Made by a program: the position numbers and the translations under genes
Origin: Cupriavidus phytohabitans
Lineage (GTDB): Bacteria > Pseudomonadota > Gammaproteobacteria > Burkholderiales > Burkholderiaceae
Length of the DNA: 64,000 nt
Assembly: GCF_000426345.1 (NCBI RefSeq)
Contig: NZ_AUFE01000004.1
Coordinates: 1-64,000 of the forward strand
Direction: 5' to 3'
In this document: piece after piece, positions 13,056 to 52,937 of the stretch
How positions within the stretch are numbered: position 1 is the first letter of the stretch
How the letters are laid out: every line of letters begins with the position of its first letter
Notes under the pieces: generated by a model
What the model was told of the DNA's origin: nothing
The model's input: the letters and a program-made list of their open reading frames with translations, nothing else
The model's database searches: none

Positions 13056-13150
13056 GGTTTGGCTCGGGGTGAAGGGTCCAATGCGGAGTATAGGACTGAA
13101 CGCGAGCAGTGGCAGTCGTTGTGCTGCTCTGCAGGTGGTTACCACGCCTG

Positions 13151-13224
13151 GCGTGAGTGTCCCATGTGAATGCCGCTTTCGTTCTATCGGCGATTCCAGC
13201 GATTTGATGTACTGGCACGCAACG
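13151..13224 (+). promoter_or_regulatory. Shared promoter element, copy in front of gcvT
   Basis: Contains TTCTATC at 13182-13188 and TGTACTGGC starting 26 bases later (13208). By hand alignment 54 of 74 positions match the region before sdaA (15995-16068) without gaps. The TTCTATC to TACT spacing is the same before purU. Likely an activator-dependent promoter; TACT would sit near -10. Confidence 0.6.
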
Positions 13225-13292
13225 TCGCCGTTGATCGACGGACCATGGCCGATTCCGTGCCCGCAACCCTGATTGCCCACTGACCCAAAGCG

Positions 13293-14429
13293 ATGACTAA
13301 AGGTCCCCCGCATTGGCAGCACACGCCACTGTATGATCGCCACCGTCTCCTTCATGCTCGCATAGGCGACGTCGATGGCTGGAAGCTTCCTGCCGCCTAC
13401 GGATCCCAGATCGAAGAGCACCACACAGTGCGCGAAGATGCCGGCATGTTCGACATGTCGCATCTGTGCGTGGTTGACCTGCACGGCCCGGATGCGCGAA
13501 TGTTTCTCGGCAAGCTCTTGTCGAACGACGTCGGAAAGCTGAAGACAGCTGGAAAGGCACTGTATAGCTGCATGCTTGACCAGTCCGGCGGCGTGATCGA
13601 TGACCTGGTCATTTACTACCTGGGGGAGCAGCATTTCCGTGCCGTCCTGAACGCGCACACGGCCGCCAGCGACCTCGAGTGGATCCGGGCAAAGGTCAGC
13701 GAGGCGAAAGCGGATGTGACCGTGATCCCGCGACGCCAGGATTGCGTGGCGGACGATGTTGAACCATTAGCGGTCATCGCCGTGCAAGGACCGAAGGCTC
13801 GGGAAAAAGTATTCCGGGCGGTTCCGGCTTCCCGCCATGCCGAAAGGCTGAAGCCGTTTAATTCCACTATCGTCCATGATTCGGCAATTGGGGAGTTGAT
13901 GGTGGCGAGAACCGGCAAAACCGGCGAGGACGGCTTCGAATTGCTGCTGCTCGCCAGCCACGCTGGTCGTGTCTGGGACATGCTGCGGTCGGCAGGCATC
14001 AGCGCGGTGGGCCATGAAGCATGGGATACGCTTCGGCTCGAGGCAGGGATGCACCGGATCGGGAAGGACATGGATCTCCATACCTCGCCGCTCGATGCCG
14101 GTCTGGGCTGGAGTGTCGAGCTGGATTCAGACCGTGATTTCTTCGGTAAGTCGGCCGTGTGCGCCCGCCGCCAGACGCAGCAGTTCGTTGGGCTCGCCCT
14201 GGAAGGCAGCGCCGCTGTCCCGGCGGCGCACAGCACAGTGACCAGCGGGAAGGGCGCGGTGATCGGCAAGGTCACCAGCGGAACCTATAGCCCGACGCTG
14301 GGCATCGCCATTGCGTTGGCGCGCGTGGCGCCCGACATCAGGATCGGCTCGCAGGTCAATGTGGAGGTCTACAAGAACAGGATTGCCGCGAAAGTGGTGC
14401 GCCCTCCATTCGTGCGGGGCGGCATCTGA
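13293..14429 (+). CDS. gcvT: Aminomethyltransferase (glycine cleavage T-protein), orphan copy
   Basis: 378 residues, normal for GcvT. HTPLYDRHRLLHARIGDVDG and FDMSHLCVVDLHGPDA open the folate-binding domain; GGVIDDLVIYYL carries the conserved Asp used with tetrahydrofolate; the C-terminus has GKVTSGTYSPTLGIAIALA. T-protein transfers the aminomethyl carbon of glycine to THF together with GcvH and GcvP, neither of which is nearby. Codon use is visibly less GC-biased than its neighbours. Its promoter element matches that of sdaA, so it is probably induced with the betaine/sarcosine genes. Action on another methylated amine is possible. Confidence 0.88.
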   Translation: MTKGPPHWQHTPLYDRHRLLHARIGDVDGWKLPAAYGSQIEEHHTVREDAGMFDMSHLCVVDLHGPDARMFLGKLLSNDVGKLKTAGKALYSCMLDQSGGVIDDLVIYYLGEQHFRAVLNAHTAASDLEWIRAKVSEAKADVTVIPRRQDCVADDVEPLAVIAVQGPKAREKVFRAVPASRHAERLKPFNSTIVHDSAIGELMVARTGKTGEDGFELLLLASHAGRVWDMLRSAGISAVGHEAWDTLRLEAGMHRIGKDMDLHTSPLDAGLGWSVELDSDRDFFGKSAVCARRQTQQFVGLALEGSAAVPAAHSTVTSGKGAVIGKVTSGTYSPTLGIAIALARVAPDIRIGSQVNVEVYKNRIAAKVVRPPFVRGGI

Positions 14430-14624
14430 GGCTTTCGGCCTGGTGATGATCCAGGCGCGGCGATCAGCGGGATGGGCTTACGGCTTGGCGAGCAATTCAA
14501 GCAACGCGCTGGCGTCCCGGAGGTCCGCGGTATCGAAGCCTTTGCTGAGAGGATGGGCGATGGTGACGGGCCGGGCAGGCATGCATCTGTCCGAAGACTG
14601 CGCTAAGTTGGCCGATGGCCGCAA

Positions 14625-15722
14625 TCATGGCTGGCTTGCGCTTTCGCTTTCTCCTTCACCGAGCGCGCACAGCGCGTCGCCATCATTGCCGGCCAGCGCG
14701 GATTCGGCGGGAGTCGCGCCCTTGTCGCGGTAGGCCGCGGGCGGCACGCCATACTGCTTGCGGAATTCGCGGCCGAGATGCGAGGCATCGGCAAAGCCGC
14801 AGCTCAGCGCGATGTCGGCGACGGCGCGGTCCGAACTGGTCAGCAGCCACGCGGCGGTGCGCAGCCGCACCTGCTTGGCGAATGCCTGCGGGCTCTTGCC
14901 AGTCTCGGCCTTGAACAGGCGCTCCAGCTGCCGCGCCGACAGGTCGAGCTTGCACGCAAGCGCCTCCAGCGGCAGCGCGCGCCCGACGTGCTGCTCCATC
15001 AGCAGGATCGCGCGCTTGACCTTCGGGTGCGTCGCCGGTTCGAGGCCTGGCGGATGTGGCTGCGGCGCATTGCCCTTCTGCATCTCGCCCACCAGCAGGA
15101 TCCGCAGCGCCTTCTGCACGGTGGCATGGTCGAAGTGGCGCAGCAGGATCGCGGCGGCGACGTCGATCGACGCGCGCCCGCCCGAACAGGTGATGCGCCG
15201 GCGGTCGATCACGAACAGCCGGTCGGCGACCAGCAGATCCGGATCGACCGACGGGAAGCGCTCGATGAAATCCCAGTAGTGGAACCAGCTGACGCAAGCC
15301 CGGTGGCCATCGAGCACGCCGGCGCGCATCAGGGAAAACACCCCGGTGCAGATGCCGACGATGGTCGCGCCGCCGCCCGCCGCGCGGCGGATGAAGTCGA
15401 GCGTCTCGGGACCGGCCTGCGGCCCCGAATGGAGCAGCCCGCCGACCACCACCACATAGTCGAACGGCTCTGCTTCGTCAAAGGTCTCCCAGGGCGCGAC
15501 CTGGATCCCGCAGCTCGCGCGCACCGGCGCGAGTGTGTTGCCGATCACGCTCCACACGCAGCGCACCGGCTTGCTGTAGTCGCCATCGTCCGCCGACAGC
15601 CGCAGCATGTCGACGAAGCCCGAAAACGCGGTCAGCGTGAAGTTCGGCAGCAGCACGATGCCAAAGCGGATGCGCCGTGGGGCCGGCTCGGCAACAGGAG
15701 AAACAGGAACGTCTGGTGTCAT
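14625..15722 (-). CDS. GlxA-type AraC regulator with DJ-1/PfpI (GATase1) sensor domain
   Basis: 365 residues from ATG 15722; ATG 15734 four codons earlier is equally possible. Residues about 20-190 form a GATase1-like domain (FGIVLLPNFTLTAFSGFVDML, VGICTGVFSLMRAG with the nucleophile-elbow Cys), followed by an AraC HTH pair (RALPLEALACKLDLSARQLERLF, DIALSCGFADASHLGREFRK). This architecture is that of GbdR, SouR, CdhR and ArgR of Pseudomonas, which sense betaine, sarcosine, carnitine and arginine. Divergent from sdaA-sox genes, so a sarcosine or serine/glycine sensor is a reasonable inference. Confidence 0.87.
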   Translation of the reverse strand: MTPDVPVSPVAEPAPRRIRFGIVLLPNFTLTAFSGFVDMLRLSADDGDYSKPVRCVWSVIGNTLAPVRASCGIQVAPWETFDEAEPFDYVVVVGGLLHSGPQAGPETLDFIRRAAGGGATIVGICTGVFSLMRAGVLDGHRACVSWFHYWDFIERFPSVDPDLLVADRLFVIDRRRITCSGGRASIDVAAAILLRHFDHATVQKALRILLVGEMQKGNAPQPHPPGLEPATHPKVKRAILLMEQHVGRALPLEALACKLDLSARQLERLFKAETGKSPQAFAKQVRLRTAAWLLTSSDRAVADIALSCGFADASHLGREFRKQYGVPPAAYRDKGATPAESALAGNDGDALCALGEGESESASQP

Positions 15723-15734
15723 GGCGGCATCCAT

Positions 15735-16101
15735 CTTGACAGGCTCGCACGGGCGGGCGCATCCGGTTTACCCCGGAAGTCGACTGGCGGGGGAGGGTGC
15801 GCTGGCCCGGGGAAACTGGTGATGCGCACTGCATCCGTTCAGCCCGCCACCGCTGCGCCCGCCCCCGTCTTGCGCCCGCTCGCACGACGCATTCCGTCCC
15901 AGCCAGAGTCGCCGATCCACCCGCCGCGGACTTGCACAATTCCGACGTGAATCATCGCCAAAGCGAAATCCGGGCCCGTACGGCGCGGTGACTGGCGGTG
16001 GTATCCCACGCCGATGCCGGTTTTGTTCTATCTGCAAATCCTGCGCTCTGCTGTACTGGCTTCCAACGACAGCAACCCAGCACCCGCAGTGAGGCAGTCA
16101 G
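15735..16101. other. Divergent control region between the AraC regulator and sdaA
   Basis: 367 bases. The right half holds the shared promoter element for sdaA (15995-16069). In the left half no clear operator or hairpin was recognised. Confidence 0.5.
15995..16069 (+). promoter_or_regulatory. Shared promoter element, copy in front of sdaA
   Basis: TTCTATC at 16026-16032 and TGTACTGGC from 16052, spacing 26, with GATGCCG upstream of TTCTATC as in the gcvT copy. It ends about 32 bases before the sdaA start and therefore probably includes the -10 region. Confidence 0.6.
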
Positions 16102-17490
16102 ATGAATGTCAGCGTATTCGACCTGTTCAAGATCGGCATCGGACCCTCGAGTTCGCATACGGTCGGCCCGATGATCGCCGCGTGCCGCTTCGTATCCCAC
16201 CTCGAGGATGCGAACCTGCTCGGCTTCGTACGCCGCGTCCGGGCGGAATTGTATGGCTCGCTCGGTGCCACCGGCAAGGGCCATGGCACCGACAAGGCGG
16301 TGCTGCTCGGCCTGGAAGGGAGCCTGCCCGACCGGATCGACCCGGACCTGATCGAGCCGCGCCTCGCGCAGATCCGCAAGGACAAGCGCGTGCTGCTGCT
16401 CGGCAAGCATGAGATCGGCTTCGAGGAAAAGGAGCACCTCGGCTTCTACCGTCGCCTGATGAGCGGCACGGGCAGTGTCGTGCACCCGAACGGCATGCGC
16501 TTCCAGGCGTTCGACGAGCAGGGGCAGTTGCTGGTCGAGAAGGAGTATTACTCGATCGGCGGCGGCTTCGTGGTCAACCGCGATGGCGAGCGCGTGAACG
16601 GCGTGCGCGCGGCGGCGGAGGTGCCATACCCGTTCCGCACCGGCGCTGAGCTGATGCAGGCGTGCCGCGGCAGCGGGCTGTCGATCGCCGAGCTGGTCTT
16701 CCGCAATGAATGCGCGCTGCGGCCGGCCGAAGACGTGCGCGCCGGGCTGCTGGCGATCTGGCACGCCATGGCCGCCTGCGTCGAGCGCGGCTGCAAGGTC
16801 GAGGGCGAGCTGCCCGGCCCGATGCGCGTGAGGCGCCGCGCGGCGGAGCTCAATTACCGGCTGCGCACGCGTTCCGAGGAATCGCTGCGCGATCCGCTGT
16901 CGATGCTCGACTGGGTCAACCTGTACGCGATGGCGGTCAATGAAGAGAACGCGGCGGGCGGCCGCGTCGTCACCGCGCCGACCAACGGCGCGGCCGGCGT
17001 GATCCCCGCGGTGCTCCACTACTACGTGAAGTTCGTGCCCGGCTCGAACGACGATGGCATCGTCGACTTCCTGCTGACGGCGGCCGCGATCGGCATGATC
17101 TACAAGGAGACTGCGTCGATCTCCGGCGCCGAGGTCGGCTGCCAGGGCGAGGTCGGCGTGGCGTGCTCGATGGCCGCGGCCGCGCTCGCGGCGGTGATGG
17201 GCGGCACGCCCGACCAGGTCGAGAACGCCGCGGAAATCGGCATGGAGCACAACCTCGGCATGACCTGCGACCCGGTTGGCGGGCTGGTGCAGATTCCCTG
17301 CATCGAGCGCAACGCAATGGGCGCGATCAAGGCGCTCAACGCCTCGCGCATGGCCCTCAAGGGCGATGGCCAGCATTACGTGTCGCTCGACTCGGTGATC
17401 AAGACCATGCGCGAGACCGGCGCCGACATGAAGACGAAGTACAAGGAGACGTCGCGCGGCGGACTGGCCGTGAACGTCATTGAATGCTAA
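16102..17490 (+). CDS. sdaA: L-serine ammonia-lyase, iron-sulfur type
   Basis: 462 residues, single-chain form with alpha and beta domains fused. [20 protein letters not shown] is the family N-terminus, with the SSSHTVGPM motif. Cysteines for the 4Fe-4S cluster occur in the C-terminal half ([15 protein letters not shown] and [12 protein letters not shown]). Deaminates serine to pyruvate and ammonia. Here it closes the betaine route: glycine made by sarcosine oxidase is turned to serine by GlyA and to pyruvate by this enzyme. The next gene, soxB, starts 13 bases after its stop, so the operon is sdaA-soxBDAG-folB-like. Confidence 0.95.
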
Positions 17491-17503: not shown

Positions 17504-18748
17504 ATGAGCCGCTATTCGATATTCAGTCTGTTCCGCAACGGGCTGTCCTACCACGAGAACTGGGAAAAGCAGTGGAGGAGTCCCGAGCCCAGGCGCGAGT
17601 ATGACGTGGTCATCGTCGGCGGCGGCGGCCACGGCCTCGCGACCGCGTACTACCTGGCGAAGGAGCACGGCATCACCAATGTGGCGGTGCTGGAGAAGGG
17701 ATGGATCGGCGGCGGCAACACCGCGCGCAACACCACCATCGTGCGTTCCAACTACCTGTGGGACGAGTCCGCGGCGCTCTACGAGAAGGCAATGAAGCTG
17801 TGGGAGGGCCTGTCGCAGGACCTGAACTACAACGTCATGTTCAGCCAGCGCGGCGTGCTCAACCTGGCGCACACGTTGCAGGACGTGCGCGACACCGAGC
17901 GGCGCGTGAACGCGAACCGCCTGAATGGCGTCGACGCCGAATTCCTGACGCCCGCGCAGGTCAAGGAGATCGAGCCCACCATCAACCTGAACAGCCGCTA
18001 TCCGGTGCTGGGCGCATCGATCCAGCGGCGCGCGGGGGTGGCCCGGCACGATGCCGTGGCCTGGGGCTTCGCGCGCGGCGCCGACCGCGCCGGCGTCGAC
18101 ATCATCCAGAACTGCCAGGTCACCGGCATCCGCCGCAACGGCGGCGCGGTGGTCGGCGTCGAGACGGTGAAGGGCTTCATCAGGGCCAAGAAGGTAGCGG
18201 TCGTTGCCGCCGGCAACACCACCACGCTGGCTGACATGGCGGGCATCCGGCTGCCGCTGGAAAGCCACCCGCTGCAGGCGCTGGTGTCCGAGCCGATCAA
18301 GCCGGTGGTCAACTCGGTGATCATGTCCAACGCGGTGCACGCCTACATCAGCCAGTCCGACAAGGGCGACCTGGTGATCGGCGCGGGCATCGACCAGTAC
18401 ACCGGCTTCGGCCAGCGCGGCAGCTTCCAGGTCATCGAAGGCACGCTGCAGGCCATCGTCGAGATGTTCCCCGTGTTCTCGCGCGTGCGCATGAACCGCC
18501 AATGGGGCGGCATCGTCGACACCTCGCCGGACGCGTGCCCGATCATCAGCAAGACCGACGTGAAGGGCCTCTACTTCAACTGCGGCTGGGGCACGGGCGG
18601 GTTCAAGGCGACGCCTGGCTCGGGCTGGGCTTATGCGCACACCATCGCGCGCGACCAGCCGCATGCGCTGAACGCACCCTTCTCGCTGGACCGCTTCTAT
18701 ACCGGCCACCTGATCGACGAGCACGGCGCCGCCGCTGTCGCGCACTGA
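17504..18748 (+). CDS. soxB: Sarcosine oxidase beta subunit
   Basis: 414 residues from ATG 17504, preceded by AAGGGGG; the open frame extends to 17480 but overlaps sdaA. FAD site [22 protein letters not shown] near residue 35; the [16 protein letters not shown]-like segment ([15 protein letters not shown]) has the His that carries covalent FMN in heterotetrameric sarcosine oxidases. C-terminus [10 protein letters not shown] and [14 protein letters not shown] is typical. Oxidises sarcosine to glycine with THF as one-carbon acceptor and O2 giving H2O2, in the cytoplasm with SoxD, SoxA and SoxG. Confidence 0.96.
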
Positions 18749-18767: not shown

Positions 18768-19064
18768 ATGTTGCTGATCCATTGTCCATGGTGCGGCCCG
18801 CGCGCCGAATCCGAATTCTCGTGCGGCGGCGAAGCCGACATCGCGCGTCCGCTCGAGACCGACAAGCTGTCCGACCGCGAATGGGGCGATTACCTGTTCA
18901 TGCGCACCAACACCCGCGGCACGCACCGCGAACAGTGGATCCACGCGCAGGGCTGCCGCCGCTGGTTCAAGGTCGAGCGCGACACCGTCAGCTATGACAT
19001 CAAGGGCTACGAGACTTTCGGCCAGCCCGCCGCCAACGCACAGCAAGGAAGGGGCAAGCAATGA
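18768..19064 (+). CDS. soxD: Sarcosine oxidase delta subunit
   Basis: 98 residues. Zinc-site ligands of SoxD are visible: Cys6 and Cys9 in HCPWCGPR, and a downstream His/Cys pair in WIHAQGCRRWF. GDYLFMRTNTRGTHREQW is diagnostic of the family. The gene follows soxB after 19 bases with an AGGAGA site and overlaps soxA by 4 bases (ATGA), which indicates translational coupling. It binds zinc and ties the other subunits together. Confidence 0.96.
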   Translation: MLLIHCPWCGPRAESEFSCGGEADIARPLETDKLSDREWGDYLFMRTNTRGTHREQWIHAQGCRRWFKVERDTVSYDIKGYETFGQPAANAQQGRGKQ

Positions 19065-22000
19065 GCCAGAAAGACCGACTCGGCACGGGCGGCCGCATCA
19101 ATCGCGGCAAGCCCCTGTCCTTCACCTTCAACGGCCGCGTGTACCAGGGCTTCCAGGGCGACACGCTGGCCTCGGCGCTGCTCGCCAACGGCGTGCGCTT
19201 CGTCGCACGCAGCTTCAAGTACCACCGGCCGCGCGGCATCATGACCGCGGACGTGGCGGAGCCGAATGCCGTGGTGCAGCTGGAGCGCGGTGCCTATACG
19301 GTGCCCAATGCGCGGGCCACGGAGATCGAGCTGTACCAGGGTCTGGTCGCGGCAAGCGTGAACGCGGAGCCGGATCTGGAGCGCGACCGCATGGCGGTCA
19401 ACCAGAAGTTTGCGCGCTTCATGCCCGCCGGCTTTTACTACAAGACTTTCATGTGGCCGCGCAAGATGTGGCCCAGGTACGAGGAGAAGATCCGCGAGGC
19501 GGCCGGGCTCGGCAAGGCGCCCACGACGCTGGATGCCGATCGCTACGACAAATGCTACGCGCACTGCGACGTGCTCGTCGTCGGCGGAGGGCCGACCGGC
19601 CTGGCCGCGGCGCACGCGGCGGCGGTGACCGGTGCGCGCGTGATCCTGGTCGATGACCAGTGCGAGCTCGGCGGCAGCCTGCTGTCCGGACGCGCCGACA
19701 TCAACGGCAAGCCCGCGCTGCAGTGGGTCGCCGAGATCGAAGGCAAGCTGCGCAAGCTGCCGGACGTGACCATCCTGTCGCGCAGCAACGCCTTCGGCTA
19801 CCAGGACCATAATCTGGTTACCGTCACGCAGCGCCTGACCGACCACCTGTCGGTCTCGATGCGCCACGGCTCGCGCGAGCTGCTGTGGAAGATCCGCGCA
19901 AAGCGCGTGATCCTCGCGACCGGTGCGCACGAGCGCCCGATCGTCTTCGGCAACAACGACCTGCCGGGTGTGATGATGGCGTCGGCGGTGTCGACCTACA
20001 TCCACCGCTACAGCGTGCTGCCGGGACGCGACACGGTGGTGTTCACCAACAATGACCGCGGCTACCAGGCGGCGCTTGACCTGAAGGCGTGCGGCGCCAG
20101 GGTGACGGTCGTCGATCCGCGTGCCACCACCAGCGGCGCGCTGCCCGCGGCGGCGAAGCGGCAGGGCGTGAACGTGATGAACGGCGCGGTCGTGGTGGCT
20201 GCCGCCGGCAAGCAGCACGTCACGTCGGTCAGCGTCGCGTCCTATGCCAACGGCAAGGCCGGCGGCAAGGTGTCGAGGATCGCCTGCGACCTCGTCGCGA
20301 TGTCGGGTGGCCTGAGCCCGGTGCTGCACCTGTTCGCACAATCGGGCGGCAAGGCGCAGTGGAGCGACGAGAAGACCTGCTTCGTGCCGGGCAAGTCGAT
20401 GCAGGCCCAGTGCAGCATCGGCGCGGCCGCGGGCGAATTCAACCTCGCGTTGGCGCTGCCGGTGGCGCTGGAAGCGGGCGCCGAGGCGGCGAAGGCCGCC
20501 GGCTTTGCAACGGCGAAGCGGCTGGCGGCGCCGAAGGTCAGCGCCGTCGCCGAAGGTCCGCTGCTGCCGCTGTGGCTGGTCGGCAGCCGCGAGGCCGCCG
20601 CGCGCGGGCCCAAGCAGTTCGTCGACTTCCAGAACGACGTCGCGGCCTCGGACATCCTGCTGGCGGCGCGCGAAGGCTTCGAGTCGGTCGAGCACGTGAA
20701 GCGCTACACCGCGATGGGCTTCGGCACCGACCAGGGCAAGCTCGGCAACATCAACGGCATGGCGATCCTGGCGCAGGCGCTGGGCAAGTCGATTCCCGAG
20801 ACCGGCACGACCACGTTCCGGCCCAACTACACGCCGGTCACGTTCGGCACCTTCGCCGGACGCGAGGTCGGCGATTTCCTCGACCCGGTGCGCAAGACCT
20901 GCGTGCACGAATGGCATGTCGCGAACGGCGCGCTGTTCGAGGACGTCGGCAACTGGAAGCGCCCCTGGTATTTCCCCAGGCGGGGCGAGGACCTGCACGC
21001 CGCGGTGAAGCGCGAATGCCTGGCGGTGCGCAACAGCGTCGGCATCCTCGATGCGTCGACCCTGGGCAAGATCGACATCCAGGGCCCGGACGCGGTCACG
21101 CTGCTCAACTGGATGTACACCAACCCGTGGGGCAAGCTCGAAGTCGGCAAGTGCCGCTACGGGCTGATGCTGGACGAGAACGGCATGGTGTTCGACGACG
21201 GCGTGACGGTGCGGCTCGGCGAGCAGCATTTCATGATGACCACGACCACCGGCGGCGCCGCGCGCGTTCTGACGTGGCTCGAGCGCTGGCTGCAGACCGA
21301 GTGGCCCGACATGAAGGTCCGCCTGTCCTCGGTGACCGATCACTGGGCGACGTTCGCGGTGGTCGGGCCGAAGAGCCGCAAGGTGCTGCAGAAGGTCTGC
21401 GCCGACATTGACTTTGCCAACGCGGCCTTCCCGTTCATGAGCTACCGCAACGGCACCGTGGCCGGCGCCAAGGCGCGTGTGATGCGCATCAGCTTCTCGG
21501 GCGAGCTGGCATACGAGGTCAACGTGCCCGCCAACGCCGGGCGTGCGGTGTGGGAAGCGCTGATGGCCGCGGGCGCCGAGTTCGACATCACGCCGTACGG
21601 CACCGAGACCATGCACGTGCTGCGCGCCGAGAAGGGCTACATCATCGTCGGCCAGGACACCGACGGCTCGATCACCCCGTACGACCTCGGCATGGGCGGG
21701 CTGGTGGCGAAATCGAAGGATTTCCTCGGCAAGCGCTCGCTGACGCGCTCGGACACGGCGAAGGAAGGCCGCAAGCAGTTCGTCGGCCTGCTGACCGACG
21801 ACGCGCAGTTCGTGCTGCCCGAGGGAGCCCAGATCATCGCGCCGGGCACGAGGGTGTCGACGACCGAGCCGACGCCCATGATCGGCCACGTGACGTCGAG
21901 CTATTACAGCCCGATCCTGCAGCGCTCGATCGCTCTCGCCGTAGTGAAGGGCGGCCTGGGCAAGATGGGCGAGAGCGTCGCGATCCCGCTGGCCGATGGC

Positions 22001-22072
22001 CGCCGCGTGAGCGCGAAGATCTCGAGCCCGGTTTTTTACGATACCGAAGGAGTGCGCCAGAATGTGGAATGA
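19061..22072 (+). CDS. soxA: Sarcosine oxidase alpha subunit
   Basis: 1003 residues, normal length. In order: a ferredoxin-like N-terminal domain (LSFTFNGRVYQGFQGDTLASALLANG), an NAD-binding FAD/NAD fold (DVLVVGGGPTGLAAAHAA, near residue 168), and a GcvT-like folate domain in the last 380 residues (GILDASTLGKIDIQGPDA, GTETMHVLRAEKGYIIVGQD). The folate domain captures the sarcosine methyl as 5,10-methylene-THF. Overlaps soxD by 4 and soxG by 11 bases. Confidence 0.96.
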   Translation: MSQKDRLGTGGRINRGKPLSFTFNGRVYQGFQGDTLASALLANGVRFVARSFKYHRPRGIMTADVAEPNAVVQLERGAYTVPNARATEIELYQGLVAASVNAEPDLERDRMAVNQKFARFMPAGFYYKTFMWPRKMWPRYEEKIREAAGLGKAPTTLDADRYDKCYAHCDVLVVGGGPTGLAAAHAAAVTGARVILVDDQCELGGSLLSGRADINGKPALQWVAEIEGKLRKLPDVTILSRSNAFGYQDHNLVTVTQRLTDHLSVSMRHGSRELLWKIRAKRVILATGAHERPIVFGNNDLPGVMMASAVSTYIHRYSVLPGRDTVVFTNNDRGYQAALDLKACGARVTVVDPRATTSGALPAAAKRQGVNVMNGAVVVAAAGKQHVTSVSVASYANGKAGGKVSRIACDLVAMSGGLSPVLHLFAQSGGKAQWSDEKTCFVPGKSMQAQCSIGAAAGEFNLALALPVALEAGAEAAKAAGFATAKRLAAPKVSAVAEGPLLPLWLVGSREAAARGPKQFVDFQNDVAASDILLAAREGFESVEHVKRYTAMGFGTDQGKLGNINGMAILAQALGKSIPETGTTTFRPNYTPVTFGTFAGREVGDFLDPVRKTCVHEWHVANGALFEDVGNWKRPWYFPRRGEDLHAAVKRECLAVRNSVGILDASTLGKIDIQGPDAVTLLNWMYTNPWGKLEVGKCRYGLMLDENGMVFDDGVTVRLGEQHFMMTTTTGGAARVLTWLERWLQTEWPDMKVRLSSVTDHWATFAVVGPKSRKVLQKVCADIDFANAAFPFMSYRNGTVAGAKARVMRISFSGELAYEVNVPANAGRAVWEALMAAGAEFDITPYGTETMHVLRAEKGYIIVGQDTDGSITPYDLGMGGLVAKSKDFLGKRSLTRSDTAKEGRKQFVGLLTDDAQFVLPEGAQIIAPGTRVSTTEPTPMIGHVTSSYYSPILQRSIALAVVKGGLGKMGESVAIPLADGRRVSAKISSPVFYDTEGVRQNVE

Positions 22073-22715
22073 ACAAGGTATTGCTACGGCATTGGCCGAC
22101 GCGCCGGCGCCGAACGCCCGCACGCGTGACGTGCGCCTGGAGTCGCCGCTGGTCGGCGCGGCCAGCCTGCTGGAAGCTCCGCACCTGCGCGGGTCGATGT
22201 ACTTCACGTTGCGCGAGCGGCAGTTCCTCGACCTGGTCATCGTGCGGGGCGAACTGGCCGATCCCGCGTTCGTCGATGCGTTCGAGGGCGTGGTGGGCTG
22301 TTGTCCGCCGGCCGCCCCCAACACGGTTGCGCGTGGCGCCGCGTACGACGTGCTGTGGCTGGGCCCGGACGAATGGCTGGTGCGATCGAACGGGCCGGTG
22401 CCGGCCGGCGTGCTGGAGGACAAGCTGGCGCCGGCCATTGCCGGCTCGTATTCGGCCGCGGTCGACGTCGGCAGCGGCTACACCGTGATCGAAATCAGTG
22501 GGGATCGTGTGCGCGATGTGCTGGCGCGGGGCTGCCCCCTCGACCTGCATCCGCGCGTGTTCCGGACCGGGCAGTGCGCCCAGAGCCATTACTTCAAGGC
22601 GCCGATCATACTGGTGCCGACCGGCGACGACCGTTTCGAGATCGTGGTGCGGCGCAGCTTCGCGGACTACTTCTGCCGCATCCTGCTTGACGCGGCGACG
22701 CCGCTGCTGTCATGA
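22062..22715 (+). CDS. soxG: Sarcosine oxidase gamma subunit
   Basis: 217 residues. ESPLVGAASLLEAP, FLDLVIVRGELADPAFVDAF, LWLGPDEWLVRS and RGCPLDLHPRVF are conserved SoxG segments; fold related to the GcvT family. Needed for the heterotetramer. Starts within the last 11 bases of soxA and ends with a 4-base overlap with the following FolB-like gene, so all five frames are coupled. Confidence 0.95.
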   Translation: MWNEQGIATALADAPAPNARTRDVRLESPLVGAASLLEAPHLRGSMYFTLRERQFLDLVIVRGELADPAFVDAFEGVVGCCPPAAPNTVARGAAYDVLWLGPDEWLVRSNGPVPAGVLEDKLAPAIAGSYSAAVDVGSGYTVIEISGDRVRDVLARGCPLDLHPRVFRTGQCAQSHYFKAPIILVPTGDDRFEIVVRRSFADYFCRILLDAATPLLS

Positions 22716-24487: not shown

Positions 24488-24524
24488 GCCGTTAGCGGGC
24501 GATGTCGGGCCTGCTCAAACGGAC

Positions 24525-24568
24525 GTCGGATTTTGCACGAAGCGCCACGGCTCTCCGCACTACTCTCG
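24525..24568 (+). promoter_or_regulatory. Promoter-like element in front of fdhA, shared with the porin
   Basis: GTCGGATTTTGCACGAAGC, CACGGC and ACTACTCTCG, arranged as before the porin with only one-base gaps. It lies 74 bases upstream of the fdhA start. Confidence 0.5.
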
Positions 24569-24641
24569 AACACGCATGCCGTGCATGCCGCGTCGACTGG
24601 CGCGGGGGCGGCAGGCCTTAACGAGACATGGAGACAAGGCG

Positions 24642-25957: not shown

Positions 25958-26983
25958 TCATGCGTGCAACACCGGCGCATACGCCTGCGCCTTGCCATGG
26001 CCCGCCGGCTTCGCCAGCGGCGCGGCCTGCTGCCGGCGCTCCCGCGTCGGTGCGACCCCGAACGCCTCGCGGTAGCTCTTGCTGAAATGGCATGCGGACT
26101 GGAAGCCGCACGCCATGGTGATGTGCATGATCGACATGTCGGTCTGCAGCAGCAGTTCGCGCGCGCGGCGCAGGCGCAGCGTCAGGTAATAGTGTGTCGG
26201 CGTCATGCCGAGATGGTCGCGGAACAGGCGCTGCAGTTGGCGCTGCGACATGCTTGCAAGGCGCGCAAGCTCCTCTCGCGACAGTGGTTCCTCGATGTTG
26301 TTCTCCATCAGCGAAATCACCTCGAACAGCGACTTGTTCGCCGAGCCCAGCCGCGCCACCAGCGGCATCTTCTGCTGCGCGCTTGTGTCCCGCACGTGTT
26401 CGACGATGAACTGCTCGGCGATCTGTGTGACGCGGCCCGTGCCGACGCGCCTGGCGATCAGGTACAGCATCATGTCGAGCGGCGCGACGCCGCCGGTGCA
26501 GGTCACCCGGTCGCGGTCGATCACGAACAGTTCCTTCAGAAAGCGGGTGTCGGGAAACTCCTCCTTCAGCGCCGACATGTTCTCCCAGTGAATGGCGCAG
26601 GCATAGCCGGCCAGCAGCCCCGACTTGGCCAGCGCGTAGGTGCCGGTGCAAAGGCTGCCGAGCATCAGGCCGTCGCGCGCCGCGCGGCGCAGCGTCGACA
26701 GGTGGGCAGCATCGGTGGAGCGCTGGACGTCGATCCCGCCGCAGACGAACACGATGTCCGGTCGCCCGATGCTGTCCACCGGACGGGTATCGATCGTCAG
26801 GCCGTTGCTGGCGGTCACGGGGCCGCCTTCCGGACTGACGACAGACCAGCGGTACAGCTCCTGCCCGCTCAGGTAGTTCGCCATGCGCAGCACTTCGATG
26901 GCGTTGGTAAACGCGATCATCGTGAAGTTTGGCAGTGGCATGAACGCGAAGTGGGACAGCGACGCGGTTCGGTCGGAGGACAT
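25958..26983 (-). CDS. GbdR/SouR-type AraC regulator with GATase1 sensor domain
   Basis: 341 residues from ATG 26983 (MSSDRTASLSHFAFMPLP); the longer frame upstream is not conserved. GATase1 domain: FTMIAFTNAIEVLRMANYL, SLCTGTYALAKSGLLAGYA, with VTCTGGVAPLDMMLYLI. HTH pair: LSREELARLASMSQRQLQRLF and ITMACGFQSACHFSKSYRE. Clearly a paralogue of the regulator at 43286 (shared EVLRMANYL, TCTGG, PTHYYLTLRLRRARE). Probably activates betaine, dimethylglycine or sarcosine genes. It faces glyA divergently. Which of the two is GbdR cannot be told from sequence. Confidence 0.87.
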   Translation of the reverse strand: MSSDRTASLSHFAFMPLPNFTMIAFTNAIEVLRMANYLSGQELYRWSVVSPEGGPVTASNGLTIDTRPVDSIGRPDIVFVCGGIDVQRSTDAAHLSTLRRAARDGLMLGSLCTGTYALAKSGLLAGYACAIHWENMSALKEEFPDTRFLKELFVIDRDRVTCTGGVAPLDMMLYLIARRVGTGRVTQIAEQFIVEHVRDTSAQQKMPLVARLGSANKSLFEVISLMENNIEEPLSREELARLASMSQRQLQRLFRDHLGMTPTHYYLTLRLRRARELLLQTDMSIMHITMACGFQSACHFSKSYREAFGVAPTRERRQQAAPLAKPAGHGKAQAYAPVLHA

Positions 26984-27451
26984 GGGGGCGTTCCTTGGTG
27001 CTTTGTCGGCGACTTGCTGGCCTGGGGAGCCATGGTGCCGTTGTCTATGGGCTATTGATAATGCGGGCGCAACAAACGTGCCATACGGCGAAACCCTAGC
27101 AATGGGGGCGACAACAGCCGCAAGCGCCGCAATGCACCGTATGCGCGACACGTGCGCCAGCGCGCGGCGCGCCAGGATGCACCATGCCAGTGCGGCGCGG
27201 GGAATACCTCGGGAGGTGCCACGCGCGCCACCGCATGCGCGCCGCTTCGCTTGCGTCCAGAGCCCTACTTGTTCAAATCGGACGCGAATGGCGGAAATGG
27301 AAAAGAACGCGTCTGAATTCACCAACCGGCCAAAAACGCGAACGACAAGAATAGATCCGTCGGCAACGCTGCGTTGAACAGGGCAAATCGCCCCAGGCGC
27401 AGCGGGCGTCTCGCCCCGTCAGCAGCCATTTCAATCAGTCACGGATACCCT
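26984..27451. other. Divergent control region between the AraC regulator and glyA
   Basis: 468 bases. Expected to hold both promoters. I could not identify a copy of either shared promoter element with matching spacing, nor a riboswitch. CCTACTTG at about 27268 recalls the TACT core of the purU element but the upstream spacing differs. Confidence 0.4.
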
Positions 27452-29875: not shown

Positions 29876-30409
29876 ATGCAACCGCAACTGCCGATCGACG
29901 TCAATCCCGACACCGGCGTCTGGACTACCGATGCGCTGCCGATGCTGTATGTCCCGCGCCATTTCTTCACGAACAACCACGTCGCGGTCGAAGAGACGCT
30001 CGGCGCCGATGCATACGCCGAGATCCTCTACAAGGCGGGGTACAAGTCCGCGTACCACTGGTGCGACAAGGAGGCCCAGCTGCACGGGCTCACCGGCATG
30101 GCCGTCTATGAGCACTACCTGAAGCGGCTGTCGCAGCGCGGCTGGGGTCTCTTCTCCCTGCTCGAGGCCGATCCGGCCACGGCGCATGCGCGTATCGCGC
30201 TGCACCACTCGTCGTTCGTGCTCGCGCAGCCGGGCAAGGAAGGCAAGCTCTGCTACATGTTCGCCGGCTGGTTCGCCGGCGCGATGGACTGGGTCAACGA
30301 CACGGCGCCGGCTGGCACGGGCGGGCCGCGCGCGCAATCGAAGGAAGCGCAGTGCGCGGCCGAAGGCCACGAGCATTGCGTGTTCGAGGTGTCGGCAATC
30401 GGCCACTGA
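29876..30409 (+). CDS. V4R-domain protein (DUF5943), betaine-cluster associated
   Basis: 177 residues, no signal peptide. MLYVPRHFFTNNHVAVEETLG starts a 4-vinyl-reductase (V4R) small-ligand domain; the C-terminal EAQCAAEGHEHCVFEVS has the paired Cys/His typical of V4R proteins. Similar proteins lie next to dgcA in Pseudomonas. Function unknown; ligand sensing or a chaperone role toward DgcAB are possible. 140 bases separate it from the dipeptidase and an AGCCACC site precedes the ATG. Confidence 0.82.
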   Translation: MQPQLPIDVNPDTGVWTTDALPMLYVPRHFFTNNHVAVEETLGADAYAEILYKAGYKSAYHWCDKEAQLHGLTGMAVYEHYLKRLSQRGWGLFSLLEADPATAHARIALHHSSFVLAQPGKEGKLCYMFAGWFAGAMDWVNDTAPAGTGGPRAQSKEAQCAAEGHEHCVFEVSAIGH

Positions 30410-39915: not shown

Positions 39916-40788
39916 TTACTGGAATACCACCGTCCGGTCCCCGTTCAGGAACACCCGCCGCTCGATGAACGCCTTCACCGCGCGCGCCAGCGTGATGCAT
40001 TCCACGTCGCGGCCGACCGCAAGCAGCTGCTCCGGCCGGTACGAATGATCGACGCGCTCGACGGCCTGCTCGATGATCGGGCCTTCGTCGAGGTCGTCGG
40101 TGACGAAGTGGGCGGTCGCGCCGATCAGCTTGACGCCGCGCGCATGCGCCTGGTGATAGGGCCTGGCACCCTTGAAGCCAGGCAGGAATGAATGGTGGAT
40201 GTTGATCGCGCGGTTGGCCAGTTTCGCGCTGGTCGCGGCCGAGAGAACCTGCATGTAGCGGGCGAGGATCACCAGCTCCGCGCCGCTCGACTCGAGCAGG
40301 TCCAGCCAGCGCGCTTCCTGCTCGCCCTTGGTCTCGGGCGTGATCGGGAAGTGCCGGAACGGCAGGTCATGCTGGCGCGCCAGCGGCTCCAGGTCGGCAT
40401 GGTTCGAGGCGACCCCCACGATATCCATCTTCAGCTCGCCCATGCGCCAGCGGAACAGCAGGTCCGCCAGGCAATGCTCGAGCTTCGACACCATGATCAG
40501 CACCCGGGGACGGGCGTGCGCATCGTGGATGGCCCACTGCATGCCGTAGCCCTGCGCGATCGGCGTGAATTCCTGCCGCAGCCGGCCGACATCCAGCGCC
40601 CGCGCGTCCGTCGGGTGGAACACGCAACGCAGGAAGAAGCGGTTGCTCAGGTCGTCGTCGAAGACGGTCAGTTCGTCGATGTAGCAGCGATGGCGCTCGA
40701 GCAGCCCGACGGTGGCGGCGACCTGGCCGGGGGCGCTCGGGCACGACAGCGTCAGGATGTGCTGTTGTGAAGGAGACTGCGCGTTCAT
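39916..40788 (-). CDS. purU: Formyltetrahydrofolate deformylase
   Basis: 290 residues from ATG 40788 (MNAQSPSQQHILTLSCPS), with AGAGG upstream. N-terminal ACT domain (about 1-80), then the formyltransferase fold with INIHHSFLPGFKGARPYHQA (Asn-x-His) and TDDLDEGPIIEQ (catalytic Asp). Releases formate and THF from 10-formyl-THF, preventing one-carbon overload during sarcosine use. In Pseudomonas it belongs to the sox gene group. The promoter carries the same TTCTATC-TACT element as gcvT and sdaA. Confidence 0.94.
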   Translation of the reverse strand: MNAQSPSQQHILTLSCPSAPGQVAATVGLLERHRCYIDELTVFDDDLSNRFFLRCVFHPTDARALDVGRLRQEFTPIAQGYGMQWAIHDAHARPRVLIMVSKLEHCLADLLFRWRMGELKMDIVGVASNHADLEPLARQHDLPFRHFPITPETKGEQEARWLDLLESSGAELVILARYMQVLSAATSAKLANRAINIHHSFLPGFKGARPYHQAHARGVKLIGATAHFVTDDLDEGPIIEQAVERVDHSYRPEQLLAVGRDVECITLARAVKAFIERRVFLNGDRTVVFQ

Positions 40789-40845
40789 GCGATTCCTCTC
40801 TGGGTTGACTGGCCGCGGACGCCTCGTGCGCGCACATGCCATGCG

Positions 40846-40905
40846 CCAAGTAGATCAGGCCATGCGGGCACCGGATAGAACCGAAGCGCCGCGTGGCTGG
40901 TATCG
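40846..40905 (-). promoter_or_regulatory. Shared promoter element, copy in front of purU
   Basis: On the minus strand TTCTATC (40880-40874) is followed by TCTACTTGG starting 26 bases later (40854), the same spacing as before gcvT and sdaA. The upstream GCGGCGCTTCGG corresponds to GCCGCTTTCG in the gcvT copy. It lies about 60 bases before the purU start. Confidence 0.55.
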
Positions 40906-41226
40906 ACGCGCCACGCCGCACGTAGCGCCGTCCCGCCCATGTCGGATGGTTGGCGCCGTTTGTGGACAGTCGCCGTCAAATTCGCCTTGCCGGATTGCCG
41001 TTGTCGCATTTGCGCAAGCACTTGTCGGAATTAGTCGGCAGGGGAGGGCGTTTCTTGGCAACCATGTAGGGAATCGCGCAACGCAGGTTGCAAAGCGACG
41101 ACAAGGTTTGCTCAGGCATTCCAGGGAGGAAGGTAGTAACGCGCCGCCAGCGCTTCCCGGACGAGTGGAGAAAGCGTTGGCATGCCATATGACGAGTGAG
41201 TCCCCGCAGGGCCAGGAGAGGTTTCG
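40906..41226. other. Region upstream of proV-like gene
   Basis: 321 bases. Apart from the purU promoter element at the left, there is a run of TTGCGCAA-like and TGCCGG repeats around 40990-41040 but no convincing operator or promoter. The proV-like gene has only a modest GGAGAGG site. Confidence 0.4.
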
Positions 41227-43285: not shown

Positions 43286-44299
43286 ATGCACGACGAGATC
43301 GATGAGGTAACTGTTGCGGCCGTGCCAGCTGGTAGCGCTTCACCTCCGATGTCGGCGCTCGCACATTTCGGCTTTCTGACCTTGCCGGACTTCTCGATGA
43401 TTGCGTTCTCGAGCGCGGTCGAGGTGCTGCGCATGGCAAACTATCTCGGGCGCGCCGACCACTACAGCTGGTCGATCTATTCAACCAACGGCGCGCCGGC
43501 GTATGCCAGCAACGGCATCGCAGTGCGTCCGACCCGCGCCCTCGATGCCTCGGCTTTGCCGGACGTGATGATCGTCTGCGGAGGCATTGACATCCGCGAC
43601 GCCGTCGACGACGGCACGCGCACGATGCTTGCCGGACTCGCCGGGCGGGGCATGCCGCTCGGCGGGATCTGCACAGGCGCCTATGCCTTGATGTCCAGCA
43701 AGCTGCTGGACGGCTACCGCTGCGCCGTGCATTGGGAAAACCGGTCCACGCTCCACGAAGAGTTTCCGCTGGTGCAGTTCGCGGACGAACTGTTTGTCGT
43801 CGATGGCGACCGGCTTACCTGCACGGGTGGCACGGCGCCGATCGACATGATGCTCTATCTGGTCGGGCTGCGCTTCGGCCAGAAGCTTGCCACGCAGGTA
43901 TCCGAGCAGTTCATCCTCGAACGCATACGTAGTGCGACCGATTCCCAGCCGATTCCGGTCTATGCGCGCGTTGGCCTGTCGCGGGCGGAGTTGATCGAGG
44001 TGGTCCGGCTGATGGAGGCGAATATCGAGGAGCCGCTGTCGCTTGACGAACTCGCGCGGCTGGTGCGGCTGTCGCAGCGGCATCTGCAGCGAATGTTCAA
44101 GTTCTATCTGAACGTGTCGCCGACCCACTACTACCTCACCCTGCGCCTGAAGCGCGCGCGCGAGATGCTGCGCACCAGCAACGCCTCGATTGCCAGTGTG
44201 ACGACGGCCTGCGGGTTCCAGTCGCCATGTCATTTCAGCAAGGCGTACCGCGCGCAGTTTGGGCATGCCCCCAGCCATGAACGGCGGCAGTCGGGATAA
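43286..44299 (+). CDS. GbdR-type AraC regulator with GATase1 sensor domain
   Basis: 337 residues. GATase1 sensor (LAHFGFLTLPDFSMIAFSSA, EVLRMANYLGRADHYSWSIY, GGICTGAYALMSSKLLDGY, TCTGGTAPIDMMLYLVGL) then AraC HTH (LDELARLVRLSQRHLQRMF, SVTTACGFQSPCHFSKAYR). Strongly like the regulator at 25958. Its genetic coupling to the ProVW-like transporter makes it the better GbdR (betaine/dimethylglycine sensor) candidate, which is inference. Paralogous third member at 14625. Confidence 0.87.
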   Translation: MHDEIDEVTVAAVPAGSASPPMSALAHFGFLTLPDFSMIAFSSAVEVLRMANYLGRADHYSWSIYSTNGAPAYASNGIAVRPTRALDASALPDVMIVCGGIDIRDAVDDGTRTMLAGLAGRGMPLGGICTGAYALMSSKLLDGYRCAVHWENRSTLHEEFPLVQFADELFVVDGDRLTCTGGTAPIDMMLYLVGLRFGQKLATQVSEQFILERIRSATDSQPIPVYARVGLSRAELIEVVRLMEANIEEPLSLDELARLVRLSQRHLQRMFKFYLNVSPTHYYLTLRLKRAREMLRTSNASIASVTTACGFQSPCHFSKAYRAQFGHAPSHERRQSG

Positions 44300-47154: not shown

Positions 47155-48435
47155 ATGCGAAGACTTTTGCTGCCGCTGGGGCTGGCGGCCGTCCTGACCA
47201 GCCCGCTTGCCGGCGTCGCCCAGACGCCACCATCCGCCATCCAACCCTCGCCGTACGCCACCGGTGCGGGCGCTGCGGGCGTATCCGAGCCATCCGGCAC
47301 GCTGACGCTGGACGCCGCGCTGGCGCTGGCCGAAGCCGGCAGCTTCGCGCTGTCCGCCGCCGGCAAGGAGCTCGACGCCACCGAGGGCGACCTGACGCAG
47401 GCGCGCGTGATTCCCAACCCCGAGCTGGCGGTGTCGATGGAAGACACGCGCCGCGCCACGCGCTCGACCACCGGGCAGTTCAACGTGCCAATCGAGCTGG
47501 GCGGCAAGCGCGCTGCCCGCATCGGCGTGGCCGAGCGTGGCCGCGAACTGGCGCAGGCCGAGCTGGGCGGCGTGCGCGCCGAACTGCGCGCGGCGGTGAT
47601 CGCGCGCTTCTTCGGCGTGCTGGTCGCGCAGGAGCGCGTCAAGCTGGCCGAGGGCTCGGTCGGCATCGCCAGCCGTGCGGCGCAGGCCGCCTCGCGCCGT
47701 GTCGCCGCCGGCAAGGTCGCGCCGCTGGAAGCAACGCGCGCGCAGGTCGAGCAGGCCAACGCCGAGCTGGAGCTGGCCGAGGCCACTGGCGCGCTGCAGT
47801 CGGCACGGCAGTCGCTGGCCGCGCTGTGGGGCAATGCCGCGCCGCGCTTCGCGCAGGCACAGGGCGACCTCGACGCGCTGCCGTCGCGCCCCGCGCCCGC
47901 CGCGCTGGAGACCGCGCTGGAAGATTCGCCGCTGCTGGCCGCCAGCCGGCTCTCCGCCGAACGCAGCCGCGCCGAAGTGGCGGTGGCGCGCAGCCGCCAG
48001 TACCCCGACGTCACCGTCAGCCTCGGCGCCAAGCGCGACAACGAGGCCAACCGCAACATGGCCGTGCTGGGCGTGGCGATCCCGCTGCCGCTGTTCGACC
48101 GCAACCAGGGCAACCTGTACGCGGCGCTGCGCCGCGCCGACCGCGCGCAGGATGTGCATGCCGCCAACCGCATCCGGCTGGCCAATGAACTGCAGCAGGC
48201 GTCGACGCAGCTGTCGGTGTCGCGCGCCGCGGCGCAGACGCTGCAGGGCTCGGTGCTGCCCGCGGCGGAGCAGGCGTATGCCGCCGCTTCGCGCGGGTTC
48301 GAGGCCGGCAAGTTCAATTTCCTCGATGTGCTGGATGCCCAGCGCACCCTGTTCCAGGCGCGCATCCGCTACCTGGACGTGCTGGCCCGCACCTATGACG
48401 CGGCCGCCAGCATCGACCGCATCCTCGGACACTGA
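47155..48435 (+). CDS. czcC: Outer-membrane factor of heavy-metal RND efflux (CzcC-like)
   Basis: 426 residues. Signal peptide MRRLLLPLGLAAVLTSPLAG, then TolC-like OEP repeats: LTLDAALALAEAGSFALSA, ARVIPNPELAVSMEDT, AVPIPLPLFDRNQGN-type segment (VAIPLPLFDRNQG) and the C-terminal helical FEAGKFNFLDVLDAQRTL. Forms the outer channel with CzcB and CzcA. 17 bases before czcB. Confidence 0.9.
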   Translation: MRRLLLPLGLAAVLTSPLAGVAQTPPSAIQPSPYATGAGAAGVSEPSGTLTLDAALALAEAGSFALSAAGKELDATEGDLTQARVIPNPELAVSMEDTRRATRSTTGQFNVPIELGGKRAARIGVAERGRELAQAELGGVRAELRAAVIARFFGVLVAQERVKLAEGSVGIASRAAQAASRRVAAGKVAPLEATRAQVEQANAELELAEATGALQSARQSLAALWGNAAPRFAQAQGDLDALPSRPAPAALETALEDSPLLAASRLSAERSRAEVAVARSRQYPDVTVSLGAKRDNEANRNMAVLGVAIPLPLFDRNQGNLYAALRRADRAQDVHAANRIRLANELQQASTQLSVSRAAAQTLQGSVLPAAEQAYAAASRGFEAGKFNFLDVLDAQRTLFQARIRYLDVLARTYDAAASIDRILGH

Positions 48436-48452
48436 TACGGAAGGCTCCAAGC

Positions 48453-49745: not shown

Positions 49746-49757
49746 GCGGGAGGCGCC

Positions 49758-52937
<3,180 letters not shown>

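Follow-up and report, generated by a model that had tools for sequence, protein, structure and literature searches.

What common signal stands before the genes for a T protein (gcvT), L-serine ammonia-lyase (sdaA) and formyltetrahydrofolate deformylase (purU) in Cupriavidus phytohabitans, and which protein reads it? The three genes lie in a stretch of 64,000 nucleotides (contig NZ_AUFE01000004.1, positions 1 to 64,000; hereafter the window) that carries a betaine-to-pyruvate cluster, in a genome of 7,579,563 bases and 260 contigs. Three regulators joining a GATase1 domain to an AraC-type helix-turn-helix (HTH) are encoded there as well, namely GATR_A, GATR_B and a GbdR-like protein. We describe a 65-bp promoter element common to the three genes, and consider it likely from sequence comparison that GATR_A, with an inducer that is most probably sarcosine, activates sdaA with the sarcosine oxidase genes (sdaA-soxBDAG), purU and the second gcvT of this genome through a class II activator-dependent sigma-70 promoter.

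A direct-repeat element ahead of gcvT, sdaA and purU

TTCTATC is found at 13182 and 16026 on the forward strand and at 40880 on the reverse strand, as the original prediction had it, and in all three places 19 bases separate it from T(G/C)TACT, so that the two motifs begin 26 bases apart. The claimed identity of the gcvT and sdaA promoters (54 of 74 positions from 13151) was likewise reproduced; with the alignment set at 13148–13221 this pair again agrees at 54/74 positions, gcvT and purU at 36/74, and sdaA and purU at 37/74. A motif search over the whole genome had been proposed as a check on this pattern, with scatter over unrelated promoters as the outcome that would speak against it. TTCTATC-N19-TSTACT has three exact matches in the genome, ahead of gcvT, sdaA and purU and all within the window, while the same pattern read backwards has none, and no scatter was seen among exact or strong profile matches. 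When two mismatches are allowed, the pattern is indeed scattered (37 forward and 30 reverse matches), but the counts equal those of the backward control (34 and 32), so that inexact matches represent chance and only exact or strong profile matches are meaningful. A profile (R1) built from 18 sites, using sequence alone, scored 69.4, 65.8 and 56.4 bits at the three promoters, which belong to its training set, and then fell to 17.7 bits at a fourth match, rejected because it lies inside a frame that reads as CcmC-like (by reading only). The profile did not find the element at the window's glyA, fdhA, dip, gbcA, choV and SBP promoters. The occurrence at three promoters is far more than chance would give.

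The element consists of two direct half-sites, TGSCG-N6-TYCYA, placed 22 bp apart and followed by an extended -10, TGN-TSTACT; no -35 is present within the 65 bp, only the extended -10. TTCTATC is the second (B) box of the inner half-site and lies at the would-be -35 position. The earlier proposal that the binding sequence occupies the 30 bases before TTCTATC therefore holds in part, in that the half-sites do extend upstream, but they run from TGGCG, 33 bases before, through TTCTATC itself. Eighteen of the sites, which also served to build R1, align without gaps and leave 27 of 74 columns invariant, with conservation at TGGCG and TCCCA upstream, GCCG and GTTCTATC downstream, and TG and TSTACT. 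If TSTACT is placed at -12 to -7, TTCTATC would span -38 to -32, and the distal half-site -71 to -56.

Because the genus sites were picked solely on TTCTATC-N19-TSTACT, conservation elsewhere in the element was not built in. Across 28 sites, the mean major-base frequency is 0.97 in the 18 unselected box columns (distal half-site, inner A box and TGN) versus 0.67 in the 43 other unselected columns. Our three own sequences show three-way agreement in 15/18 box columns versus 6/43 others (Fisher p = 4e-7, a descriptive value since the boxes were drawn after these sequences had been seen). With the -10 assumed, the sequence has the layout of a class II AraC-type promoter: two direct half-sites, the inner one over -35, and no consensus -35. 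At araBAD, AraC occupies two direct half-sites (I1-I2) spaced by 21 bp, each with a 5' and a 3' box 11 bp apart, and the inner one covers the -35 of a weak promoter. The element described here is alike in having two two-box direct half-sites, boxes 11 bp apart and the inner half-site over -35, although the sensor domain of AraC is unrelated to the GATase1 domain of GATR_A.

A plain -35/-10 promoter is ruled out by the 20-bp spacing and by the conservation outside the hexamers. In another account, a constitutive or sigma-factor-type promoter would have spread by duplication with no specific regulator, TTCTATC being an odd -35; the likeness of the gcvT and sdaA copies means that one may derive from the other. 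We consider this account highly improbable, given that conservation tracks the direct repeat beyond the hexamers, that purU has the boxes yet has only 36–37 of 74 positions in common with the other two, that TTCTAT would stand 20 bp from the -10, and that the element is confined to one family in the samples searched and tied to GATR_A.

Distribution of the element

Within the genus, the exact pattern occurs at 31 places in 20 of 60 genomes (our own included), and the backward control at 4 places in 4 genomes. Outside our own genome the exact places number 28, of which 14 precede sdaA, 7 gcvT (one a remnant) and 4 purU; the 3 with nothing recognisable behind them are about the control level (4), leaving 25/28 ahead of one of these three genes. 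At E<=0.01 the profile matches 114 of the 249 genomes of a family sample, the 114 coming from 11 of the 25 genera. The 62 family loci inspected (22 + 40), a part of all matches, contain 63 profile matches, which stand before sdaA (41), purU (18), soxB (2, directly before the gene in G179 and G139), glyA (1) and a gene read as a DMT/EamA-type transporter (1). The transporter gene (L142 of G254, genus g20), with its 54.7-bit element, is a possible extra member of the regulon.

The strict 65-bp pattern, searched across 84,980 species genomes, returned 75 stretches. Their titles give Burkholderia, Paraburkholderia, Trinickia or Cupriavidus, and Ralstonia solely for Ralstonia sp. NFACC01. The gene behind is sdaA in 66, gcvT in 4 and purU in 3, and 2 stretches end before any gene. 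A divergent GATR_A lies less than 2 kb away in 63 of the 75, including 61 of the 66 with sdaA; the other 5 hold less than 1500 bp of upstream sequence. Under stricter filters, samples of 379 order and 350 class genomes gave no profile match at E<=1e-4 beyond the family, and the 4 and 1 genomes that were matched in these two samples are all of the family itself.

GATR_A as the candidate regulator

GATR_A matches PF01965 (42.7 bits) and PF12833 (87.3 bits), both above the gathering score, and is thus a GATase1-AraC (GATR) protein. None of the three regulators reaches the 480-bit cut-off of the GbdR model NF052371 (NCBIfam), with 171 bits for GATR_A, 366–367 for the GbdR-like protein and 387 for GATR_B. 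Members of the regulator family were found in 3 of the 14 control genomes, with no Pseudomonas by title among them. GATR_A orthologs are present in 106 of the 249 family genomes (109 matches at 1e-60, minus three with only 36–38% paralogs), and a profile match accompanies them in 106/106, with a best E per genome of 1.1e-19 to 3.4e-4. Since the element accompanies GATR_A across related bacteria, GATR_A is very probably the switch; the expectation of one activator for all three genes, and of a GATase1-AraC protein in that role, gains support from these comparisons.

The other two regulators have to be weighed against it. GbdR-like orthologs occur in 104 family genomes (106 minus G210, 1.1e-69, and G250, 1.7e-93, taken as paralogs), again with a profile match in every one, and in 103 of the 106 GATR_A genomes. 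The A boxes moreover resemble the Pseudomonas aeruginosa GbdR/CdhR half-sites GCCGC and GGTCGC given in the accessible part of PMC5806209. The reader of the element might accordingly be the GbdR-like protein, GATR_B or all three regulators, given that GbdR and CdhR have overlapping sites in P. aeruginosa, a possibility that we regard as improbable. First, three genomes (G062, G104 and G179) have GATR_A and the element with no match at 1e-60 to the GbdR-like query, a query that picks up GATR_B too (54% identity, 8.5e-116 in our own genome), and have no close homolog of either protein. Second, G273 has a GbdR-like protein and no GATR_A, and shows only a decayed purU site (E 5.7e-5). Third, the other betaine-cluster promoters in the window are without the element. 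Lastly, the HTH recognition helices are kept in GATR_A orthologs and are unlike those of the GbdR-like protein and GATR_B (17, 13 and 15 sequences). The gene order of G062, purU-glyA, element, GATR_A, element, sdaA-sox, reads as a minimal regulon.

Outside the family, the best GATR_A homologs (62–63% identical) are in G569 and G620, from two other families, and both lie beside purU; that of G569 also adjoins soxB. In G569, TGNCG-N6-TTCTA stands ahead of both purU and soxB, and in G620 ahead of purU, against an expectation of 0.04 and 0.01 per locus. Between sdaA and a 47% homolog in G620 lie two half-site-like sequences, and the locus contains another two elsewhere, all by a looser pattern. 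Further homologs, 39–41% identical, are found in G635, G338 and G564. Within the family sample, second GATR_A-like copies (71–75% identical) lie elsewhere in G133, G107, G278, G170, G091, G254, G229, G214, G071, G276, G101, G163, G242 and G219.

Several points weigh against the assignment to GATR_A. Eight genomes with an element match lack it. Five of these are at chance level (G044, G075, G160, G171 and G202; E 0.002–0.008), and were rejected as real elements because the fetched piece holds no window homolog, as chance predicts; two more, G250 (a weak match) and G273, are decayed purU promoters. The last, G032, is listed as 100% complete and has a strong gcvT element (L088/L105) with no GATR_A or GbdR-like match at 1e-60, and is a real counterexample unless the element is a relic. 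GATR_A and the GbdR-like protein occur together in 103 genomes, so that only four genomes tell them apart, and in one of these, G104, another GATase1-AraC protein (39% identity with GATR_B) is encoded about 9 kb away from GATR_A. Regulator absences rest on few candidates scored per genome, and the family genomes are related, so that 106/106 does not stand for 106 independent events. Outside the family, the first box was widened from TGSCG to TGNCG after those promoters had been read, and the G569 and G620 loci each have one further match to the widened pattern elsewhere. No promoter half-site is present at three more distant homolog loci (43–47%; L292, L293 and L294), where the one match, in L293, lies inside the sox genes and L292 and L294 have none. 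The 22-bp spacing is also one more than the 21 bp that the accessible part of PMC5806209 implies for P. aeruginosa CdhR.

In the mechanism that we propose for GATR_A, a dimer would bind the two direct half-sites, from about -71 to -32, with the inner B box TTCTATC taking the place of a -35. The inducer-bound protein would fill both half-sites and contact RNA polymerase from the -35 position, and the polymerase would then fire from the extended -10 TGN-TSTACT. The products of the target genes would oxidise sarcosine, clear the resulting glycine and serine, and turn formyl-folate back into free folate. Sarcosine appears the likeliest inducer, because each of the three minimal clusters (G062, G104 and G179) has sox genes beside GATR_A. 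Steps that follow sarcosine are likewise among the targets (serine deaminase, T protein, formyl-folate deformylase, and glyA in G062), as would suit a GATR_A that responds instead to glycine, serine or another metabolite; set against the sox genes of the minimal clusters, this choice of ligand seems to us rather unlikely.

SouR functions in sarcosine catabolism, and the gene neighbourhood of GATR_A suggests that it is probably a SouR-like sarcosine regulator. GATase1-AraC proteins control the use of betaine, sarcosine and carnitine in P. aeruginosa, where the sites of CdhR, GbdR, SouR and ArgR are described as similar, and GATR_A resembles SouR and GbdR in its domains, its connection with sarcosine/betaine catabolism and its similar direct half-sites (PMC5806209, accessible part). 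It differs from them in its score on the GbdR model, far below the cut-off, in its targets here (sdaA-sox, purU and gcvT), in the B box TTCTATC and in the 22-bp spacing. CdhR, according to the same part of that source, has direct half-sites GGTCGC with a 15-bp spacer and a 34-bp footprint; it is like the element in its direct half-sites, but is class I and binds well upstream, whereas the element overlaps the -35 position (PMC5806209). The portions available of PMC12323605 and PMC8041468 give no site sequence. In titles and abstract openings, with subscription journals mostly outside reach, we found no description of the element or of a GATR_A regulon in Burkholderiaceae. GATase1-AraC control is a known kind of system; the site, the targets and the regulator assignment are new here. 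With them, the disposal of sarcosine, glycine and serine gains an exactly defined site and a candidate regulator in Cupriavidus, Burkholderia, Paraburkholderia, Trinickia and one Ralstonia-labelled genome, and the picture of GATase1-AraC control drawn from Pseudomonas is extended to a second lineage. They also connect formyl-folate deformylase and a second T protein with the use of sarcosine, which annotation by itself would not reveal.

Gene order, the second gcvT and other conserved blocks

The cluster (Table 1) begins with GATR_A, divergent from sdaA, and continues with soxB, soxD, soxA, soxG, a porin gene and fdhA; then follow GATR_B, glyA, a dipeptidase gene, a gene for a DUF5943/V4R protein, dgcA, dgcB and etf genes, and finally gbcA, gbcB, a binding-protein gene, purU on the reverse strand, an ABC transporter and the GbdR-like regulator. 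gcvT stands alone upstream of the cluster. sdaA probably heads an operon with soxB, reading sdaA-soxBDAG, and sarcosine oxidase is therefore probably part of the regulon. The curated family score is passed by soxA, soxB, sdaA, purU, fdhA, glyA and gcvT; soxD, soxG and gbcA match their own curated families below the cut-off, and the names of dgcA, dgcB, gbcB and the etf, porin and transporter genes come from sequence reading and gene order.

Table 1. Promoter elements, their target genes and the GATase1-AraC regulators in the window
Feature	Position	Strand	Remarks
gcvT element, distal half-site TGGCG-N6-TCCCA	13149..13164	+	sequence
gcvT element, proximal half-site TGCCG-N6-TTCTATC	13171..13188	+	sequence; B box predicted at -38 to -32
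gcvT extended -10, TGA-TGTACT	13205..13213	+	predicted role; predicted transcription start near 13220
gcvT paralog (T protein)	13293..14429	+	54% identical to the other gcvT-like gene, contig C12
GATR_A, GATase1 (DJ-1/PfpI) + AraC HTH regulator, proposed activator	14625..15734	-	divergent from sdaA
sdaA element, distal half-site TGGCG-N6-TCCCA	15993..16008	+	sequence
sdaA element, proximal half-site TGCCG-N6-TTCTATC	16015..16032	+	sequence
sdaA extended -10, TGC-TGTACT	16049..16057	+	predicted role; predicted start near 16064
sdaA, L-serine ammonia-lyase	16102..17490	+	TIGR00720, 732 bits, over cut-off
soxB, sarcosine oxidase beta subunit	17504..18748	+	TIGR01373, 728 bits, over cut-off; scanned from 17480
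soxD, sarcosine oxidase delta subunit	18768..19064	+	TIGR01374, 112.4 bits, just under cut-off of 116.5
soxA, sarcosine oxidase alpha subunit	19061..22072	+	TIGR01372, 1425 bits, over cut-off
soxG, sarcosine oxidase gamma subunit	22062..22715	+	TIGR01375, 112.7 bits, under cut-off of 144
GATR_B, second GATase1-AraC regulator	25958..26983	-	divergent from glyA
purU, formyltetrahydrofolate deformylase	39916..40788	-	TIGR00655, over cut-off (scanned from 40842); start chosen at 40788
purU extended -10, TGA-TCTACT	40849..40857	-	predicted role; predicted start near 40842
purU element, proximal half-site CGGCG-N6-TTCTATC	40874..40891	-	sequence
purU element, distal half-site TGGCG-N6-TACCA	40898..40913	-	sequence
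Third GATase1-AraC regulator, GbdR-like	43286..44299	+	

The gcvT of the window is a paralog, and in our own genome, as in G043, G049, G002, G023 and G032, a gcvT that lies apart from the GbdR-like gene carries the element. In G045, a gcvT with the element is followed by a choW-type gene and then by the GbdR-like gene. Eight genomes (G010, G014, G021, G038, G039, G042, G050 and G055) have gcvT starting 99–132 bp behind the GbdR-like gene, and in their fetched loci the profile at E<=1 finds the purU element only and none at gcvT. In G034, gcvT lies 2.4 kb behind the GbdR-like gene, with a 39.3-bit element 0.8 kb before it; this element fronts a 243-amino-acid frame read as a shortened sdaA, and the two together (L071, 15573–16431) have the look of an sdaA unit that was duplicated and is decaying. 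An intact gcvT element in G018 (L086, 9750, minus strand) precedes a gcvT stub of about 17 codons and is a promoter fossil. We tentatively postulate, with a little less than even confidence, that GATR_A governs an overflow regulon for one-carbon units, glycine and serine, apart from the betaine-responsive one, and that the second T-protein gene changes its control by moving.

Other features of the window may be of separate interest. The DUF5943 and V4R-like protein (29876–30409), encoded between the dipeptidase gene and dgcA, is kept in betaine clusters of the genus. Three consecutive genes at 47155–52937 resemble a CzcCBA-type metal efflux set, the third being a CusA/CzcA-family RND pump by family score and the first two named by reading only. 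Between GATR_B and glyA, a block at 27295–27450 is strongly conserved in 14 Cupriavidus sequences and contains TCTGAATTC and GACAAGAATAGA; it does not match the element and is probably the site of another regulator. Of 15 genus sequences, 13 show GTCGG repeated at a 21-bp spacing upstream of fdhA (24500–24640), possibly marking the site of a related GATase1-AraC protein with a different second box.

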